This document shows positions 1 through 26,882 of a DNA stretch of 32,114 nucleotides, piece by piece. Below the pieces are notes generated by a model. It worked only from the letters and a program-made list of their open reading frames with translations. It had not been told where the DNA came from and ran no database searches. The first letter of the stretch is position 1. The number at the start of each line of letters is the position of its first letter. The translations under genes were made by a program, and so were the position numbers. This DNA is from Oscillospiraceae bacterium (GTDB lineage Bacteria > Bacillota > Clostridia > Oscillospirales > Oscillospiraceae): positions 1 through 32,114 of the forward strand of contig JAFSLL010000205.1 in the NCBI GenBank assembly GCA_017448455.1. Direction: 5' to 3'.

Positions 1-134
1 ATCGCCGCGATGGCGCTCTGCTCGGAATTGATCTTGCTCTTAATGGTGGTGTCGGCAACCATCTTGCCGTTCTCGTCCAGAATGACTGCTTTGGTGTAGG
101 TGGAGCCTACGTCGCATCCGCCGAAATACTTCAT
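1..134 (-). CDS. 2-hydroxyacyl-CoA dehydratase activator ATPase (HgdC/BadF-type), 5' part only
   Basis: The gene runs off the left edge of the window; only the first 44 codons are visible. They read MKYFGGCDVGSTYTKAVILD..., the phosphate-1 loop (G-x-D-x-G-S-T-x-T-K) of the ASKHA-fold activator family. In known systems this homodimeric [4Fe-4S] ATPase hydrolyses ATP to drive one electron at very low potential into the dehydratase. The start is set by a GGAGG sequence 8 nt before the ATG. It lies 38 nt downstream of the dehydratase subunit and is surely in the same operon. The family is confident; the cluster-binding cysteines and the substrate are outside the window. Confidence 0.9.
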   Translation of the reverse strand, partial: MKYFGGCDVGSTYTKAVILDENGKMVADTTIKSKINSEQSAIAA

Positions 135-172
135 TGATAATTCCTCCAAAGAAATAGTTTAATTAAGATAGA

Positions 173-1969
173 TTACATGCAGACTTCGTCTTCGAACTCG
201 ACCAGGGACGGATCAACCGGCTCGGCACGCATAACGGTGCGCATATACTCGTTGACCTTGTCACGCATGGTACGGCGGGAGACAGTACGGGGATCCATCA
301 GGTCGTGCTCAACCCAGATCAGGTCGTAGCCGCGCTGACGGCCCTGCTCATCGAGCAGGCCCTGAACGGTTGCCATGTTCTTGCAGGCGACGTTCTGGTA
401 CATGATGACGAGCTTGGCGTTCCAGGCTTCGCACTGACGCCAACACTCGTCCACGACGTTCTGATAGCCGCCGTTGGTGTGACGACGCATAACCATACGC
501 TCATACAGACGGGCCAGGTCACGCAGCGCCTCTTCCTTGTCTTCCGTCTCCAGGTGCTTGGTGTAGTTCAGAGACTCCATCTCAACCAGGACATCGATGC
601 CCCAGCAGTTGGCAAGCCAGTTGGAGAAGTTGGCGTAATAGTGGGCCGGGCAGGACCAGACCAGCGCGCGATACTTCATCTTTCTCTCGGGCCAGGCGGT
701 CTCGCCGTTCTCATAGGCCTTGTGAAGCATCTTGTTCATCTTCTGCATGGCGGGCAGAACACGCGGGTCAATGCCGCCGTCCATCTCGTAGTTCCATTTA
801 CGGAAGAGCTCATAGCTCGGTCCGATGAACTGCGGACGGGAAGTCTTGTTGATCTCCCACTTCTGGAGCTCAAGATCCGTCTCCTGATTGAAACGCTTCA
901 TGCAGGTGAAGTAATGATCCCAGTTCCACTTGGCTCCGGTCGCATCCTCAATTGCCTTAATGCAGGCCTTGATGTCATCGGCGCCCATCTGTACGGTTTC
1001 CTCATCCGCATAACGGACCGGGAAGCAGAGATGGAAGACCGGGATGTTCGGGAAGCGGCGGGCGAAGTAAGAGCTCGCCATGGTGGAGCCGTCGCAGGGC
1101 ATGGAGGAGGAAATAAACAGGGAGCCCATATCCGGCAGCGCGTCAATGACCAGCGCGCCGCACTCGGAAGACGGCACCGGGCAGGTGTCGGAAGGAAGGC
1201 CGTAGCTCTCAACCGCGTCGATATAGGGGATGCAGACGAGCTGGTCAATTTCGGAGACCAGGAACATCGGGAGCAGCTGATGCGGGATAGCGAGCAGATC
1301 GGGGAAACCGGCAGCGATCTGACCCATGGTCATCTCGTCAAAGGTGAAGAGCATCTTATTGAGCTCGTCACTGTTGCCGTTTTTGCGGTCCGCCTTGGAG
1401 AGGAAGACCAAGTTCTCCGCGACGTAGCGGAAAATCTCATAGGTGGCGGCGTGGCTCATACGAAGGTTGGAGCCGCGCAGACCGAGGATGTTCTTATCCA
1501 TGAAGCCGTGGCAGCAGAAATAGGAAATCATCCAGCGATACCACAGCGCGCTGTTCATGGCCGGGATCAGGTCCTTCGAGAAGGTCATGAGCAGCATGCC
1601 CCACATGCGGGCCCACTCATAGAAGTCATACGCGGTATCCTTGATGCCGCGCCACTCACGGCGGACAGTCGCCATAGCGCCCTTGCGGTAGAGACGGCCG
1701 AGGCTGCGCTCACCGTTCAGGATGCGGTCCACCTTATTGGCAGTGTCGAGCGCCATAAAGTCGTTGAACTCTTCCTTAACGCGGACGCCGTCCTGCTTCA
1801 GACCGTCGACCATGCCTTCGCCGAAGGCCTTCCAGTCGGTCTTCGCGAGCATGCCGCCGAAGATGCCCATGACTTCCATCAGGTTCGCGCCCTGCTTCTT
1901 CCAGTCAATATTATCTTTCGCTTTCCAGAATTTTGGATTGGGGTATTGCACTTTCTGCGCTTTAGCCAT
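173..1969 (-). CDS. 2-hydroxyacyl-CoA dehydratase family subunit, long form (HgdA-like)
   Basis: The protein has 598 residues. The part from about residue 190 on resembles the D-component family of 2-hydroxyacyl-CoA dehydratases and benzoyl-CoA reductases. Candidate cluster cysteines are C263 in a DTCP motif, C292 in a MPCDG motif, and later cysteines in WSCPAHYY and NVACKNM. Family members usually have about 380-480 residues, so the first 190 or so residues are an extension; it is rich in aromatic residues and has a hydrophobic stretch near 120-155. The start ATG overlaps the stop of the upstream subunit by one base (TAATG), which implies translational coupling and probably a heterodimer. 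The family is well supported. The substrate is not known, and no CoA-transferase is visible. Confidence 0.85.
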   Translation of the reverse strand: MAKAQKVQYPNPKFWKAKDNIDWKKQGANLMEVMGIFGGMLAKTDWKAFGEGMVDGLKQDGVRVKEEFNDFMALDTANKVDRILNGERSLGRLYRKGAMATVRREWRGIKDTAYDFYEWARMWGMLLMTFSKDLIPAMNSALWYRWMISYFCCHGFMDKNILGLRGSNLRMSHAATYEIFRYVAENLVFLSKADRKNGNSDELNKMLFTFDEMTMGQIAAGFPDLLAIPHQLLPMFLVSEIDQLVCIPYIDAVESYGLPSDTCPVPSSECGALVIDALPDMGSLFISSSMPCDGSTMASSYFARRFPNIPVFHLCFPVRYADEETVQMGADDIKACIKAIEDATGAKWNWDHYFTCMKRFNQETDLELQKWEINKTSRPQFIGPSYELFRKWNYEMDGGIDPRVLPAMQKMNKMLHKAYENGETAWPERKMKYRALVWSCPAHYYANFSNWLANCWGIDVLVEMESLNYTKHLETEDKEEALRDLARLYERMVMRRHTNGGYQNVVDECWRQCEAWNAKLVIMYQNVACKNMATVQGLLDEQGRQRGYDLIWVEHDLMDPRTVSRRTMRDKVNEYMRTVMRAEPVDPSLVEFEDEVCM

Positions 1970-3165
1970 TATGCCTTGCCCTCCTCTTTATGAATGCGTT
2001 TGATTTCAAGCGATTCCACGAAGGCCTGAACACGGGTCCGAAGCTGTCCGGAGTTACCGTTGTTATACAGTCTGTCGACAGAGAGAACCGGCCAGCCGTA
2101 CTCGTCGTGCATAATATGGCTGACGAGCGCACGCTCGAATCCCCAGTAATCGCAGTACTTCATCTGCTCATAAATGATGCCTTCCGCACCGAATTCCTTC
2201 GCCAGTCTGTCGGATGTCTCACGGCGCTGCAGAACCTTCTCATCGGAAATGTAGCGGGCGCACTCGGAAACTTCCATGTAATGGCGGCAGATCTGGGTCA
2301 GCGCGTCTTCCTCATCATTCAGCTCGATGACCTCGCGGCCGGGTGTGGAACCGAAGCAGTAACGGTCGGAAACAACCAGCGCGCCGCAGCCCTCGATCAG
2401 CTTGGTCAGGCTCGGATCGTCAATTTCAGAACCGACAATCGCGACTCTGGCACGGAACGGGTTCTTCTTGTCGGGCTTTCTCTTCTTGAGCTCTTCCAGG
2501 GTCTCCTGCAGATAGGGAAGAATCTCGCTCTTCGGACAGACATAAGTGACCAGGTCCAGAACATGGAACTCATAGCCTGTGATAACGGGGTTCTCCTTCT
2601 TGCGCATCTCGCTGATCTCGGAGATGATCCTGCAGACTTCGTTATGCTCCTCCACCGCTTTGCGGATGGCGGCATCCGAGGTATCGACGCCGAACACTTC
2701 CGTCAGACGGTCCAGAACGCGCACGCGCATCTGTCTTCTGTAGCCTTCAATGGTGTAATCGGTGATTTTGAAGGGCATGTCGGTGTGCGTGACAAAGAAG
2801 TTCGGCTTGCTGTTGACCTGGAGAATCTCAAAGTGCTCCATGGAGCGGTTCATCATGGAACATGCGTCAACACCGATCAACGCGTCCAGAAACTGATATC
2901 CGCCCTCAATGGCGCGCTCGAGAAGAGCACGGGCATACTCGCAGGTATAGTTGGACATATAATAGGTGGCGATGTCAATGGAGCCGGTGTTCGGGGCGCG
3001 GAGTCTGGTTGAGAAGCAGCGGTCAACATTGAGAAGAACTTCCGGAATGTGGAAGCAGGTATATCCCAGGCAGATATTCCCATCCGCCTTCTTCTTTTCG
3101 ATCAGCTCATTGTCGGCGTTCTCAAGCAGGCTCTCAAAGTAGATCAGATGCTTAAGATCTTTCAA
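1969..3165 (-). CDS. 2-hydroxyacyl-CoA dehydratase family subunit (HgdB/FldC-like)
   Basis: The protein has 398 residues, the usual length for the small subunit. The three expected cluster cysteines are visible: C75 (SNYTCEYAR), C102 (DACSMMNRSME) and C338 (MKYCDYWGFE). The C-terminal signature SVDRLYNNGNSGQLRTRVQAFVE is typical of the family. In characterised members the subunits carry [4Fe-4S] or double-cubane clusters and receive an electron from the activator ATPase. The only plausible start is a TTG at 3163-3165, preceded by GAGGTG at 6 nt. It lies 18 nt after the CooC-like gene and overlaps the next subunit. The reaction could be dehydration of a 2-hydroxyacyl-CoA, but a reductase or double-cubane-protein role is equally possible. 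Confidence 0.9.
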   Translation of the reverse strand: MKDLKHLIYFESLLENADNELIEKKKADGNICLGYTCFHIPEVLLNVDRCFSTRLRAPNTGSIDIATYYMSNYTCEYARALLERAIEGGYQFLDALIGVDACSMMNRSMEHFEILQVNSKPNFFVTHTDMPFKITDYTIEGYRRQMRVRVLDRLTEVFGVDTSDAAIRKAVEEHNEVCRIISEISEMRKKENPVITGYEFHVLDLVTYVCPKSEILPYLQETLEELKKRKPDKKNPFRARVAIVGSEIDDPSLTKLIEGCGALVVSDRYCFGSTPGREVIELNDEEDALTQICRHYMEVSECARYISDEKVLQRRETSDRLAKEFGAEGIIYEQMKYCDYWGFERALVSHIMHDEYGWPVLSVDRLYNNGNSGQLRTRVQAFVESLEIKRIHKEEGKA

Positions 3166-3183
3166 ATGTTACACCTCTTCTTT

Positions 3184-3948
3184 TCATAGAATTTCTATTT
3201 TTTGGAGTGCTTCCTTCACTCCCTTGAGCATAGCGGAATCCGCAGGCAGCTCCAGAACGCTCTTGCCCTTGATATCATTTGCGGCAAAAGCACCGTCCGC
3301 GGGGATCGCCGTGAGAACATCAACCCCCGGAAGCTGAATCAGCTCCACCAGTTCGGGATTTGTCACACGGTTAATAATGACACCGATACGGTCATAGGCA
3401 ATCAGCTCATCGGCAACGCTCTTGATGGTGGCAATCACCTGCCCGCCCTTCTTGCTCTGATCGGTGATCAGAAGCAAATGGGTAACCTTTTCCATCACAC
3501 GCCGCTGAATCTGCTCGATACCGGCCTCACCGTCAATTACGACATAATCGAAGCTGCCGGCAAGCATGCCGATGACTTCCTTGAGATAGGAGTTCACCTT
3601 GCAGTAGCAGCCGGAACTCTCCGGACGGCCGATCGCCAGAAAGGCAAAGCCCGGCATCTCCACCAGCGCATCGAAAATGCGGAAACGCGCTTCACTGAGA
3701 AGCTCCAGGGCCTCCCGTGTCTCGCCGTTTTCAACACTGTCCACAATACTCATGCGGATATCATCCAGTGTCATCTTCACATCCACGCCAAGCGCTACGG
3801 ACAGGCCGACAGCGGGATCCGCGTCAATGGCAAGAATCTTCTTATCCGGGTACTGTTCAACCAGAAGGCGAACAATAGACGCACAGATCGAAGTTTTGCC
3901 AACGCCGCCCTTGCCGGCGACCGTAATAATCTTGGCTTTATTCTCCAT
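3184..3948 (-). CDS. CooC/AcsF-type P-loop ATPase
   Basis: The protein has 254 residues of the MinD/ParA (SIMIBI) class. A deviant Walker A, GKGGVGKT, lies at residues 12-19. IDADPA at 41-46 and VVIDGEAG near 136 form the switch and Walker B regions. A Cys-Tyr-Cys at 114-116 matches the CxC motif through which CooC dimers bind metal during nickel insertion into CO dehydrogenase and acetyl-CoA synthase. No nickel enzyme is encoded here. The gene is first in the operon with two dehydratase subunits and their activator, so I infer a role in cluster assembly or metal loading of that enzyme. GGAGGG 6 nt before the ATG fixes the start. Confidence 0.88.
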   Translation of the reverse strand: MENKAKIITVAGKGGVGKTSICASIVRLLVEQYPDKKILAIDADPAVGLSVALGVDVKMTLDDIRMSIVDSVENGETREALELLSEARFRIFDALVEMPGFAFLAIGRPESSGCYCKVNSYLKEVIGMLAGSFDYVVIDGEAGIEQIQRRVMEKVTHLLLITDQSKKGGQVIATIKSVADELIAYDRIGVIINRVTNPELVELIQLPGVDVLTAIPADGAFAANDIKGKSVLELPADSAMLKGVKEALQKIEIL

Positions 3949-4042
3949 ATACTTCCCTCCTTCCTCATCCGAATCAGGAACCGCTGCCTTATAAAAACAG
4001 CTGTTTCCGTGATAAAGAGCATACTACTTCACTATCGTTGGT

Positions 4043-4071
4043 ATTTTAACACAGTGCCCCGAAATATGCAA
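4043..4071 (-). promoter_or_regulatory. Sigma-A promoter of the CooC-dehydratase operon
   Basis: Read on the minus strand, TTGCAT (4066-4071) and TAAAAT (4043-4048) are separated by exactly 17 bp. The transcript would have a leader of about 85-90 nt before the CooC-like ATG. The rest of the gap 3949-4258 contains this leader, the promoter and the polC terminator; I see no gene in it. Confidence 0.7.
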
Positions 4072-4159
4072 GATATACACTCAGCGAATCCCAAGATCTG
4101 GTTTTTTCGTGCAATTTGCAAATGACTTTCCCCTGTTTAGACAATTTTTGAAATCCTGT

Positions 4160-4201
4160 TAAAAAATTTCTCTCCGATCAGCTGCCGGCCGTCGGAGAGA
4201 A
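4160..4201 (-). terminator. Rho-independent terminator after polC
   Basis: A perfect 10-bp stem (4168-4177 with 4192-4201) is followed on the minus strand by ATTTTTTAAC. It lies 57 nt past the polC stop and separates the housekeeping cluster from the dehydratase operon. Confidence 0.85.
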
Positions 4202-25536: not shown

Positions 25537-26292
25537 TTACGCAGCATTATCCAACTGACCCAAAAGAGAATCGCTGTTGATTGGGAAAGTAAAGTAGGTA
25601 TCAGGGTAGGGTTCATTATCCAGCGTGAAGTGCCACCATTCTTCCGCCAGGGGCCGGAAGCCGTGTTTCATCATAACCTCACGCAAAAGCATACGCATGG
25701 CATACTGTTCTTCCGTGATACCCGTATAATCCGGATGGCTGAGTTCTCCAAAGAAGTCAAATGTTCCGCCCATGTCCACCTCACGCTCTGTGTTCATATC
25801 GAAAAGCGTCAGGTCAAACGTGCTGCCGCGGCTGTGACCTGAGTGTTCCGCAATATAGCCCTGGGGGAAGAGAACGTCCTTATCCAGATCCGGGTAGAAG
25901 TATTCCTTCATGCGGGTATCCTCTGTATCCAGAGCCCAGTTCATGAAATGCGTTACAGCCATCTGTGGACGATAAGCATCAAATATCTTCAGACGATATC
26001 CTTTCCCCATGAGCTCGTCGCTGACCTCTCTCAGTGCAGCGGCCGCCTCAGATGTCAGCATTGCCAGCGGCTCTTCATATCCGTCGATCCGATCTCCCAC
26101 GAAATTATACGTGGAATAGTATCGAATCTCCAGAATGGCATCGGGCACGGCTTCACTCAGCAGGACAAAGTCCGAAGCGTCATCCGAGAAAACGATATCT
26201 GCTTCCTGTTCAGCAAACCAGGCAGCTGTGCGGGCAGCCACGTTTTCTTTCAGATTCGTGAAAAAGAACATAAGCTGAATGGCATTCTTCAT
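25537..26292 (-). CDS. D-Ala-D-Ala dipeptidase, VanX-like (M15D)
   Basis: The protein has 251 residues. The zinc dipeptidase residues are in place: Arg108 (AYRPQ), His153 and Asp160 (SGHSRGSTFDLTL), Glu218 and His221 (EWWHF). The spacings (45, 7 and 3) equal those of VanX Arg71, His116, Asp123, Glu181 and His184, an offset of 37 residues. The first 37 residues are therefore extra. They begin MKNAIQL, which resembles the start of AbiEii toxins. Such dipeptidases hydrolyse D-Ala-D-Ala in cell-wall turnover or, in van clusters, in glycopeptide resistance; no other van gene is here. GGAGG precedes the ATG, which overlaps the AbiEi stop by 4 nt. Confidence 0.87.
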   Translation of the reverse strand: MKNAIQLMFFFTNLKENVAARTAAWFAEQEADIVFSDDASDFVLLSEAVPDAILEIRYYSTYNFVGDRIDGYEEPLAMLTSEAAAALREVSDELMGKGYRLKIFDAYRPQMAVTHFMNWALDTEDTRMKEYFYPDLDKDVLFPQGYIAEHSGHSRGSTFDLTLFDMNTEREVDMGGTFDFFGELSHPDYTGITEEQYAMRMLLREVMMKHGFRPLAEEWWHFTLDNEPYPDTYFTFPINSDSLLGQLDNAA

Positions 26293-26882
26293 AGCAGCAC
26301 CTCCAGATAAGATCTCAGCTTTTCCTCTACTTTGAGAATCCCCGCATACTCTGACAGTAAAGGAATGTTTTTTTCCTTCCTTGAAGCATATCGCTTAAAA
26401 GCATCTGTGACGATCTGTACGTCCGTATGATTTCTAGGTTTTAATATATCGCACAGTGTCCGCTCGGCACAGTAACCTCTGACAGCATTCCCTCCCGGCG
26501 TTATCAGTTCTGTTAATCCCAGGCTGTAATAAGGTTCCTTTGCCCCGCTACAAAGGATGCCGTCCCGTTTCGGGTTTGATAAGTTATAAGTAGATGGGAA
26601 TACCATACGGAATTTCAGCGGAGTCCTGTCCGTCAGGTCACAAAGAAACAAAGCCGTATCAAGGGCATAGATTCCCCTTTTATACCGGCTTTGAACGCTG
26701 ACAAATTCATCTTCCCAGCTTTCCGGAAGTGTGTAAACCCCGCGGGAAGTGCGTTCAAGCCTGCCTGTATCCGACAAATATTTAAGGCTGCCTCGGGAAA
26801 AGCCGGCTTCTACAACCATAGCCGTTGTGACCACACCGTTATTCTGTTTTGCCAATTCCATAATCTGTTTAGAATCTGTCAT
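26289..26882 (-). CDS. AbiEi-type antitoxin (type IV toxin-antitoxin), orphan
   Basis: The protein has 197 residues. The N-terminal winged helix (MELAKQNNGVVTTAMVVEAGFSRGSLKYLSDTGRLERTSRGVYTLP) is followed by the antitoxin C-terminal domain, with ALDTALFLCDLTDRTP, MVFPSTYNLSN and the YCAERTLCDILKPRNHTD segment. In AbiE systems AbiEi represses its own promoter and counteracts the nucleotidyltransferase toxin AbiEii, whose gene overlaps its stop. Here that position is taken by a VanX-like gene and no AbiEii is found in the window. GGAGGTGA 5 nt before the ATG is an excellent ribosome binding site. Confidence 0.87.
   Translation of the reverse strand: MTDSKQIMELAKQNNGVVTTAMVVEAGFSRGSLKYLSDTGRLERTSRGVYTLPESWEDEFVSVQSRYKRGIYALDTALFLCDLTDRTPLKFRMVFPSTYNLSNPKRDGILCSGAKEPYYSLGLTELITPGGNAVRGYCAERTLCDILKPRNHTDVQIVTDAFKRYASRKEKNIPLLSEYAGILKVEEKLRSYLEVLL

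Follow-up and report, generated by a model that had tools for sequence, protein, structure and literature searches.

A conserved operon of gut bacteria with an AcsF/CooC-type ATPase, an acetyl-CoA synthase-derived protein and a putative BzdNO-like reductase

In the class I benzoyl-CoA reductase BzdNO, Cys 36, 73, 100, 263, 293 and 327 ligate a double-cubane [8Fe-9S] cluster and Cys 95, 128 and 380 ligate a [4Fe-4S] cluster, and the enzyme has been produced in E. coli from a bzdNO plasmid (accessible text of PMC11971306). BzdNO is among the closest described relatives of two genes in the stretch of DNA analyzed here, an entire contig of an Oscillospiraceae bacterium (G000:C184, 32,114 bp; hereafter the window), which encodes on its minus strand an AcsF/CooC-type P-loop ATPase, two subunits of the HGD-D family (B and C) and the start of an ATP-dependent activator. 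AcsF and CooC are nickel-insertion ATPases associated with carbon monoxide dehydrogenase (CODH) and acetyl-CoA synthase (ACS), and Gregg et al. are said to have reported in 2016 that AcsF acts on ACS in acetogens. We found that the genes visible in the window are half of a conserved operon, here called the module, and that the missing part is an ACS remnant. The full order in relatives is AcsF-type ATPase, B, C, activator, usually a one-helix membrane peptide, and a protein with the A2 domain of ACS.

Components of the operon

The ATPase gene (3184..3948, minus strand) encodes 254 aa with the Walker A motif GKGGVGKT and a CxC motif at C114-Y-C116. Pfam detected a CbiA/MinD-type P-loop, and the protein also resembles MinD, NifH and NUBPL-type proteins. 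Among solved structures, the closest in sequence is that of a CooC (3kje, E 9e-16), in which the CYC motif lines up. We compared it with 20 loci carrying other CooC/AcsF-type homologues, 11 taken from matches to the module profile and nine from ACS genomes; ACS was present in 13 of the 20, and none of the 20 had a B, C or activator gene near the ATPase. Two ATPase kinds occur in nine of the 13 ACS loci, and the remaining four show the second kind only within the stretch fetched. The first kind scores 68-74 bits against the module profile and mostly reads KMG..GG..CYCREN, while the second scores 127-171 bits and reads VMGGPQGPGCYCYPN or similar; going by gene positions, we take the first to be CooC and the second to be AcsF. 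In its spacing around CYC, the module ATPase agrees with the second kind, and in a tree rooted on the CooC type, with eight of the 14 module rows included, it forms its own clade with the homologue from a distant genome, G219 (support 0.996), beside the AcsF type. With both the P-loop and the CxC motif, and with its closest relatives in CODH/ACS loci, the module ATPase is on sequence grounds classified as AcsF type, in a separate clade. Among the compared homologues, L193, L194 and L195 have AcsF-type ATPases away from ACS within the fetched stretch, next to what we presume to be MoxR-like AAA and VWA-like genes, and L185 and L186 each contain two ACS genes together with a divergent CooC having the motif CVC and a Walker A ending in KS.

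The B subunit (1969..3165, minus strand, 398 aa, TTG start) and the C subunit (173..1969, minus strand, 598 aa) both match Pfam HGD-D, at 299 and 114 bits respectively (cut-off 28.4). All 16 rows of B, G219 included, have Cys 37, 75, 102, 270, 302 and 338, and all 17 rows of C have Cys 263, 292 and 529. Alignments place these sets on the ligands of the BzdN [8Fe-9S] and the BzdO [4Fe-4S] clusters, except that C292 and BzdO C128 fall in neighbouring columns. The six-cysteine double-cubane pattern of B is common to BzdN and to the double-cubane cluster protein (DCCP), whereas HadC has no cysteine aligned with C270 and only offset cysteines around C37, two positions before and three after. In this respect B does not fit a HadC-like subunit, a type that lacks the double-cubane cysteine set. 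In NCBIfam, B scored 136 bits against double_cubane (cut-off 350), 79.1 against HadC and 77.6 against BzdN (cut-off 453.8). The original prediction had called the pair dehydratase-family subunits; the HGD-D family stands, but 'dehydratase' is probably the wrong label, and BzdNO-like fits better. The C subunit profile matches BzdO and MbdO as well as DCCP, and the protein has an N-terminal extension of about 85 aa that is not found in the paralogues aligned.

The same cysteine sets occur in pairs of 30-38% identity elsewhere in these genomes, and those in the window's own genome have no ATPase with them. This genome has three additional C-type genes (contigs C104, C105 and C72; 32-38% identity) and a single ATPase match. 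The C-type genes on C105 and C72 (loci L038-L040, counting that on C104) have a B partner; the gene on C104 matched no B and lies near a gene that is presumably Old-Yellow-Enzyme-like. Up to six C-type matches, fragments included, were seen per same-genus genome.

The activator, of the BcrAD/BadFG family, begins at the left edge of the window (1..134, minus strand) and runs for 44 residues before the contig ends; in relatives it is full-length, at 264 aa. The four genes lie on the minus strand with an 18-nt gap between ATPase and B, a 1-nt overlap between B and C and a 38-nt gap before the activator, a co-directional layout that the original prediction had given correctly. The prediction had also placed them behind one promoter, and here we found no sigma-70-like site upstream of the ATPase gene on the minus strand. 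Since the window is the whole contig, the operon is truncated at the left edge. Bases 1-151 are 98% identical to the end of contig C72 of the same genome (G000:C72:1-154, L040), which also ends inside an activator gene, and the assembly probably broke here because the activator is repeated.

Beyond this edge, an ACS-like protein of about 244 residues follows the activator in all six fetched same-genus loci in which the contig continues, one of them being the source of our query. The Pfam family CdhC (PF03598, the ACS beta domain; cut-off 24) matched it at 25.0 bits in protein P0005 and at 53.9 bits in G219; among 26 locus genomes searched with PF03598, the ACS-like gene fell below the cut-off in three and was not found in two. 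With E values of at most 1, a profile of 43 relatives matched 17 PDB sequences; the top 15 are ACS (best E 9e-6, in the A2 region). Aligned with 15 ACS proteins, its A2 domain is collinear up to the CxxC that opens the A-cluster, which we take to be Cys506/509 of Moorella ACS. The protein stops soon after a third cysteine, and the fourth cubane cysteine, most of the A3 domain and the CGC motif, which in ACS binds the distal nickel, are missing. It thus retains the A2 domain without the complete A-cluster ligand set of four cubane cysteines plus CGC. All 43 rows, and G219 as well, keep its C216, C219 and C225 (C-x2-C-x5-C). No match to this protein was found on plasmids. At L042:15502-15741, a second partial copy comprising the C-terminal third lies downstream of the complete one.

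In 41 of 49 loci, a gene for a single-helix membrane peptide lies between the activator and the ACS-like gene; the peptide has the core NLD(Q/M)K and the typical sequence VLFVVYFWNLDQKLLGWAY..VN.IFDRK. One peptide tested for hydropathy scored 2.57 over 19 residues, and one scanned against Pfam gave no match.

Conservation, spread and relation to the CODH/ACS pathway

The order ATPase-B-C is kept in all 12 orthologous same-genus loci fetched, which were drawn from the 27 other same-genus genomes listed with a C subunit of at least 70% identity. We then scanned 84,980 species genomes and obtained 226 stretches encoding ACS-like relatives, of which 80 loci were kept. An activator lies at most 700 nt upstream of the ACS-like gene in 44 of the 50 kept loci with enough sequence, an ATPase lies at most 6.5 kb upstream on the same strand in 28 of 34, and B and C stand between the two in 26 of 34, a few rows in these counts being near-identical. 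The records are titled Oscillospiraceae/Ruminococcaceae, Lachnospiraceae, Mogibacterium, Crickella, Erysipelotrichaceae and Holdemanella, and many derive from ruminant or horse gut samples. One operon (L092) is in a record titled Bacteroidaceae from horse faeces, by mis-binning or transfer.

Of 37 genomes of the genus, 31 have the ATPase and 27 have the ACS-like gene. In a further 23 genomes, from other genera of the order, we found the ATPase once (AcsF-like, in G041) and the ACS-like gene not at all. G018, a 95% complete genome of the same genus, lacks the ATPase, the module-type C subunit and the ACS-like gene all together. When profile A4 was run against 398 genomes of the phylum, 16 matched; in 15 of these the frames, 396 to 748 aa long, looked like real ACS, and the match in G219 was a true relative. 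All five components are found in G219 in the order B, C, two activators, ACS-like gene, ATPase. Upstream of them come two genes for acyl-CoA-dehydrogenase-like proteins and one for a 593-aa protein that belongs to no family. One of the two dehydrogenases was scanned and most resembles cyclohexanecarbonyl-CoA dehydrogenase, at a score far below the cut-off.

Based on this neighbourhood survey, the ATPase-B-C arrangement is not confined to a single genome, the outcome that the original prediction had named as fatal to its guess of a dedicated metal- or cluster-insertion ATPase. That guess survives, with adjacency conserved well beyond this genome and an ATPase of AcsF type. A CODH or ACS gene immediately past the left edge had been named as a second such outcome, and here the answer is divided: an ACS fragment does follow the activator and the membrane peptide in relatives, so that the client of the ATPase may be this fragment rather than, or en route to, the reductase, but the fragment does not have the full A-cluster ligand set.

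We also asked how the module relates to canonical CODH/ACS genes. A true ACS accompanies the ACS-like gene in three of 27 genomes (G470, G471 and G219), and PF03598 showed none in the other 24; the set consists of G219 and 26 genomes reached through loci, for which completeness is not given and which include that of L095, where no ATPase is adjacent. The true ACS of G219 came to light with PF03598 but not in the A4 search. The genome of the window (G000) is a metagenome-assembled genome (MAG) of 3.5 Mb in 308 contigs, with 91.9% completeness and 7.3% contamination. Its only match to the CODH family PF03063 is, judged from the N-terminus, presumably a hybrid-cluster protein, and no ACS was seen in this 92% complete MAG by searches that relied mainly on PF03063 and PF03599, PF03598 not having been run on it. 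A corrinoid iron-sulfur protein scored over the PF03599 cut-off in none of the 37 same-genus genomes, while G041, of the same order, was positive at 288 bits. Weak matches below the cut-off occur in eight of the 37 (frames of 551 to 837 aa), and we assume these to be MetH-like. A reading of the module as an alternative acetyl-CoA synthase was lowered on account of this lack of PF03599 matches over the cut-off. FTHFS, present in 50 of 60 genomes, is uninformative on the pathway. Given a true ACS in three of 27 genomes, no corrinoid iron-sulfur protein over the cut-off and no CODH in the window's own genome, the module is largely independent of the canonical pathway.

Proposed function and alternatives

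We suggest that the reductase is BzdNO-like and ATP-driven and receives a metal or cluster from the ATPase and the ACS-derived protein. B and C would form a BzdNO-like heterodimer, in which the activator would drive ATP-powered low-potential electrons into a double-cubane [8Fe-9S] cluster of B. From there, electrons would pass to an open-site [4Fe-4S] cluster of C, where a substrate, probably CoA-bound, would be reduced. The loading steps are more tentative. The CxC motif of an ATPase dimer might hold either a cluster precursor or a metal, which would be nickel if AcsF and CooC are a guide. With ATP, the dimer might then pass this cargo to C-x2-C-x5-C of the ACS-derived protein, a possible carrier or scaffold through which the reductase is loaded. 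Anchoring the complex could be the role of the membrane peptide. The family membership of each part, the gene order and the conserved cysteine sets are read directly from the sequences, and it is from gene order and family membership that the proposal draws its odds. As a whole it is the best explanation we have, though slightly more apt to be wrong than right. A narrower version is doubtful: by analogy, the pair could be a member of the benzoyl-CoA reductase/double-cubane family with a heterometal centre, probably nickel, loaded by the AcsF-type ATPase via the ACS-derived carrier. Such a centre would, with the same doubt attached, define a nickel-dependent branch of ATP-driven radical reductases across gut and rumen bacteria.

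Several observations weigh against the delivery proposal. The pair scores far below the curated NCBIfam cut-off of every named subfamily matched, the bzdN equivalog included; BzdN and HadC score alike on B, both behind double_cubane. The best profile match of C among solved structures is DCCP, not BzdO, and in NCBIfam the C subunit of G219 scores best with HadB, a subunit of a dehydratase, at 53.8 bits; double_cubane gives it 49.2 bits, and both scores lie far below the cut-offs. A search of the MAG to which the window belongs found no ACS-like gene. An ATPase match is absent from four genomes of the genus that do have the ACS-like gene, and eight others, including the window's own, have an ATPase match but no ACS-like gene; these are incomplete MAGs. 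The ACS-like gene has no upstream ATPase in six of 34 loci (L091, L094, L095, L125, L131 and L149), and in two of 34 (L076 and L088) the order is ATPase, activator, ACS-like gene without B and C between; L086 and L087, on shorter contigs, also show only these three. Since a bzdNO plasmid yielded BzdNO in E. coli, it seems that a double cubane can be assembled without such helpers, and this suggests that something differs in the module pair. The G219 C subunit also lacks three extra cysteines typical of the module. All 35 module C subunits have Cys 270, 336 and 440; among 21 others, 6, 5 and 16 have the respective residue (Fisher p 3e-9, 5e-10 and 0.005, with rows that are not independent). These are counts after duplicate removal, from 40 module and 23 other rows, with G219 counted among the others and with L132, L110, L081 and L074 (>50% identity, no ATPase in view) excluded from both sets. 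We rejected these cysteines as the metal target site: G219 has the module and none of the three, and so they cannot be a general target.

The alternative that survives best is that the ATPase serves the ACS-derived protein only, and that this protein is a working subunit, one that partners the reductase by binding a CoA ester or carrying electrons, for instance, rather than a carrier for loading it. The module retains an AcsF-type ATPase together with a piece of ACS, the two genes are adjacent in G219, and L076, L086, L087 and L088 have both plus the activator with no B and C between. The fragment, however, lacks the fourth cubane cysteine and the CGC motif of the A-cluster, and B and C do stand between both genes in most loci (26 of 34). 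We consider this account unlikely, yet the strongest competitor to delivery to the reductase.

Nearly as strong is the idea that the ATPase and the three-cysteine protein are an iron-sulfur assembly aid only, which builds or repairs a double-cubane or [4Fe-4S] cluster without any nickel. C-x2-C-x5-C could carry a [4Fe-4S] cluster, and the likeness of the ATPase to MinD, NifH and NUBPL-type proteins would fit. Its nearest relatives are nevertheless AcsF and CooC homologues with CxC, and further HGD-D pairs in these genomes lie without such genes beside them; we therefore hold this alternative to be unlikely as well.

It is very improbable that the genes share a neighbourhood and a transcript without a joint function. 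The ACS-like gene does stand apart from the others in some genomes (the six of 34 loci above), but the same set recurs in gut and rumen Bacillota under several family labels and, rearranged, in G219, and G018 lacks the ATPase, C subunit and ACS-like gene together. Least probable of all is that the operon takes the place of an absent CODH/ACS where gut bacteria have partial Wood-Ljungdahl pathways, making CO or acetyl-CoA: an ACS A2 domain, an AcsF-type ATPase and a low-potential reductase do meet in one operon, and a Lachnospiraceae enrichment showed acetogenic labelling and CO dehydrogenase activity without canonical genes (accessible text of PMC7000372), but the A-cluster is incomplete, PF03599 is over the cut-off in none of the 37 same-genus genomes and the window's own genome has no CODH match beyond the hybrid-cluster protein. 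A link between the module and the acetogenesis puzzle of 'Ca. Galacturonibacter' described in the same source is possible.

The gene set suggests an unrecognised route for building or using a metal centre in gut and rumen bacteria. Both the assembly of the double-cubane [8Fe-9S] cluster and the use of a non-iron metal in this family are made testable with a handful of genes. In addition, the operon suggests that the A2 domain can outlive the reaction of ACS, and it draws attention to an uncharacterised reductase present in many ruminant and horse gut genomes.

Surrounding sequence and comparison with known systems

Upstream of the ATPase gene, between it and polC, an intrinsic-terminator-like stem is followed by a T run (4159..4201, minus strand; -21.5 kcal/mol, z -2.8). 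The stem-loop (4201-4159) is absent from the consensus-scan listing. Its presence fits a transcription unit for the ATPase operon that is separate from polC. Eighteen further window proteins were scanned and include polC, gcpE, an M50 peptidase, dxr, uppS, frr, an amino-acid-kinase-family gene and ABC transporters, among others. There is no CoA-transferase among these 18 proteins outside the operon, as the original prediction had noted, other frames having been left unscanned. At 26289-26882, the window encodes a protein with an AbiEi-type antitoxin domain.

Our literature searches found no account of this gene arrangement. The accessible portions of PMC13056359, PMC11338639 and PMC6006190 make no mention of such an operon, those of the first two lacking even the word dehydratase; in the available part of a paper that shares three COG numbers with the module, CooC and DCCP appear in separate tables with distant locus tags. 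Each part of the module has, however, a known counterpart. DCCP and its reductase (6eno, 7yyl) share the six-cysteine pattern of B, as reflected in the double_cubane score, and DCCP is the best structural profile match of C. The module differs in having two different subunits, whereas the C. maritimus DCCP entry, as far as its record goes, comprises DCCP plus its reductase. The 2-hydroxyisocaproyl-CoA dehydratase HadBC likewise combines HGD-D subunits with an activator, and HadC scores near BzdN on B, but it departs from B at C270 and C37.

The ATPase shares with AcsF and CooC the Walker A motif GKGGVGKT and the CxC motif, with the AcsF-like spacing around CYC, and is set apart by its separate clade and, in the loci seen, by having neither a CODH nor a complete ACS as a neighbour. 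The ACS-like protein resembles the ACS beta subunit (CdhC/AcsB) in its A2 domain and the first CxxC of the A-cluster; unlike CdhC/AcsB, it is only about 244 aa long, without the fourth cubane cysteine, the CGC motif or the N-terminal domain. A reductase operon that carries nickel-insertion proteins has a parallel in the isr isoprene reductase operon with HypA/HypB, whose reductase is FAD-dependent and whose metallochaperones are different (accessible text of PMC10134865). Compared with BzdNO (8s02) and the 3-methylbenzoyl-CoA reductase MbdNO (9g87), the module has a single activator gene (two in G219), a score far below the bzdN NCBIfam cut-off, an extended C subunit N-terminus and the additional ATPase, ACS-like protein and membrane peptide. 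With these two systems it shares the two HGD-D subunits, the BcrAD-type activator, and the six-cysteine and three-cysteine sets at aligned or adjacent positions.

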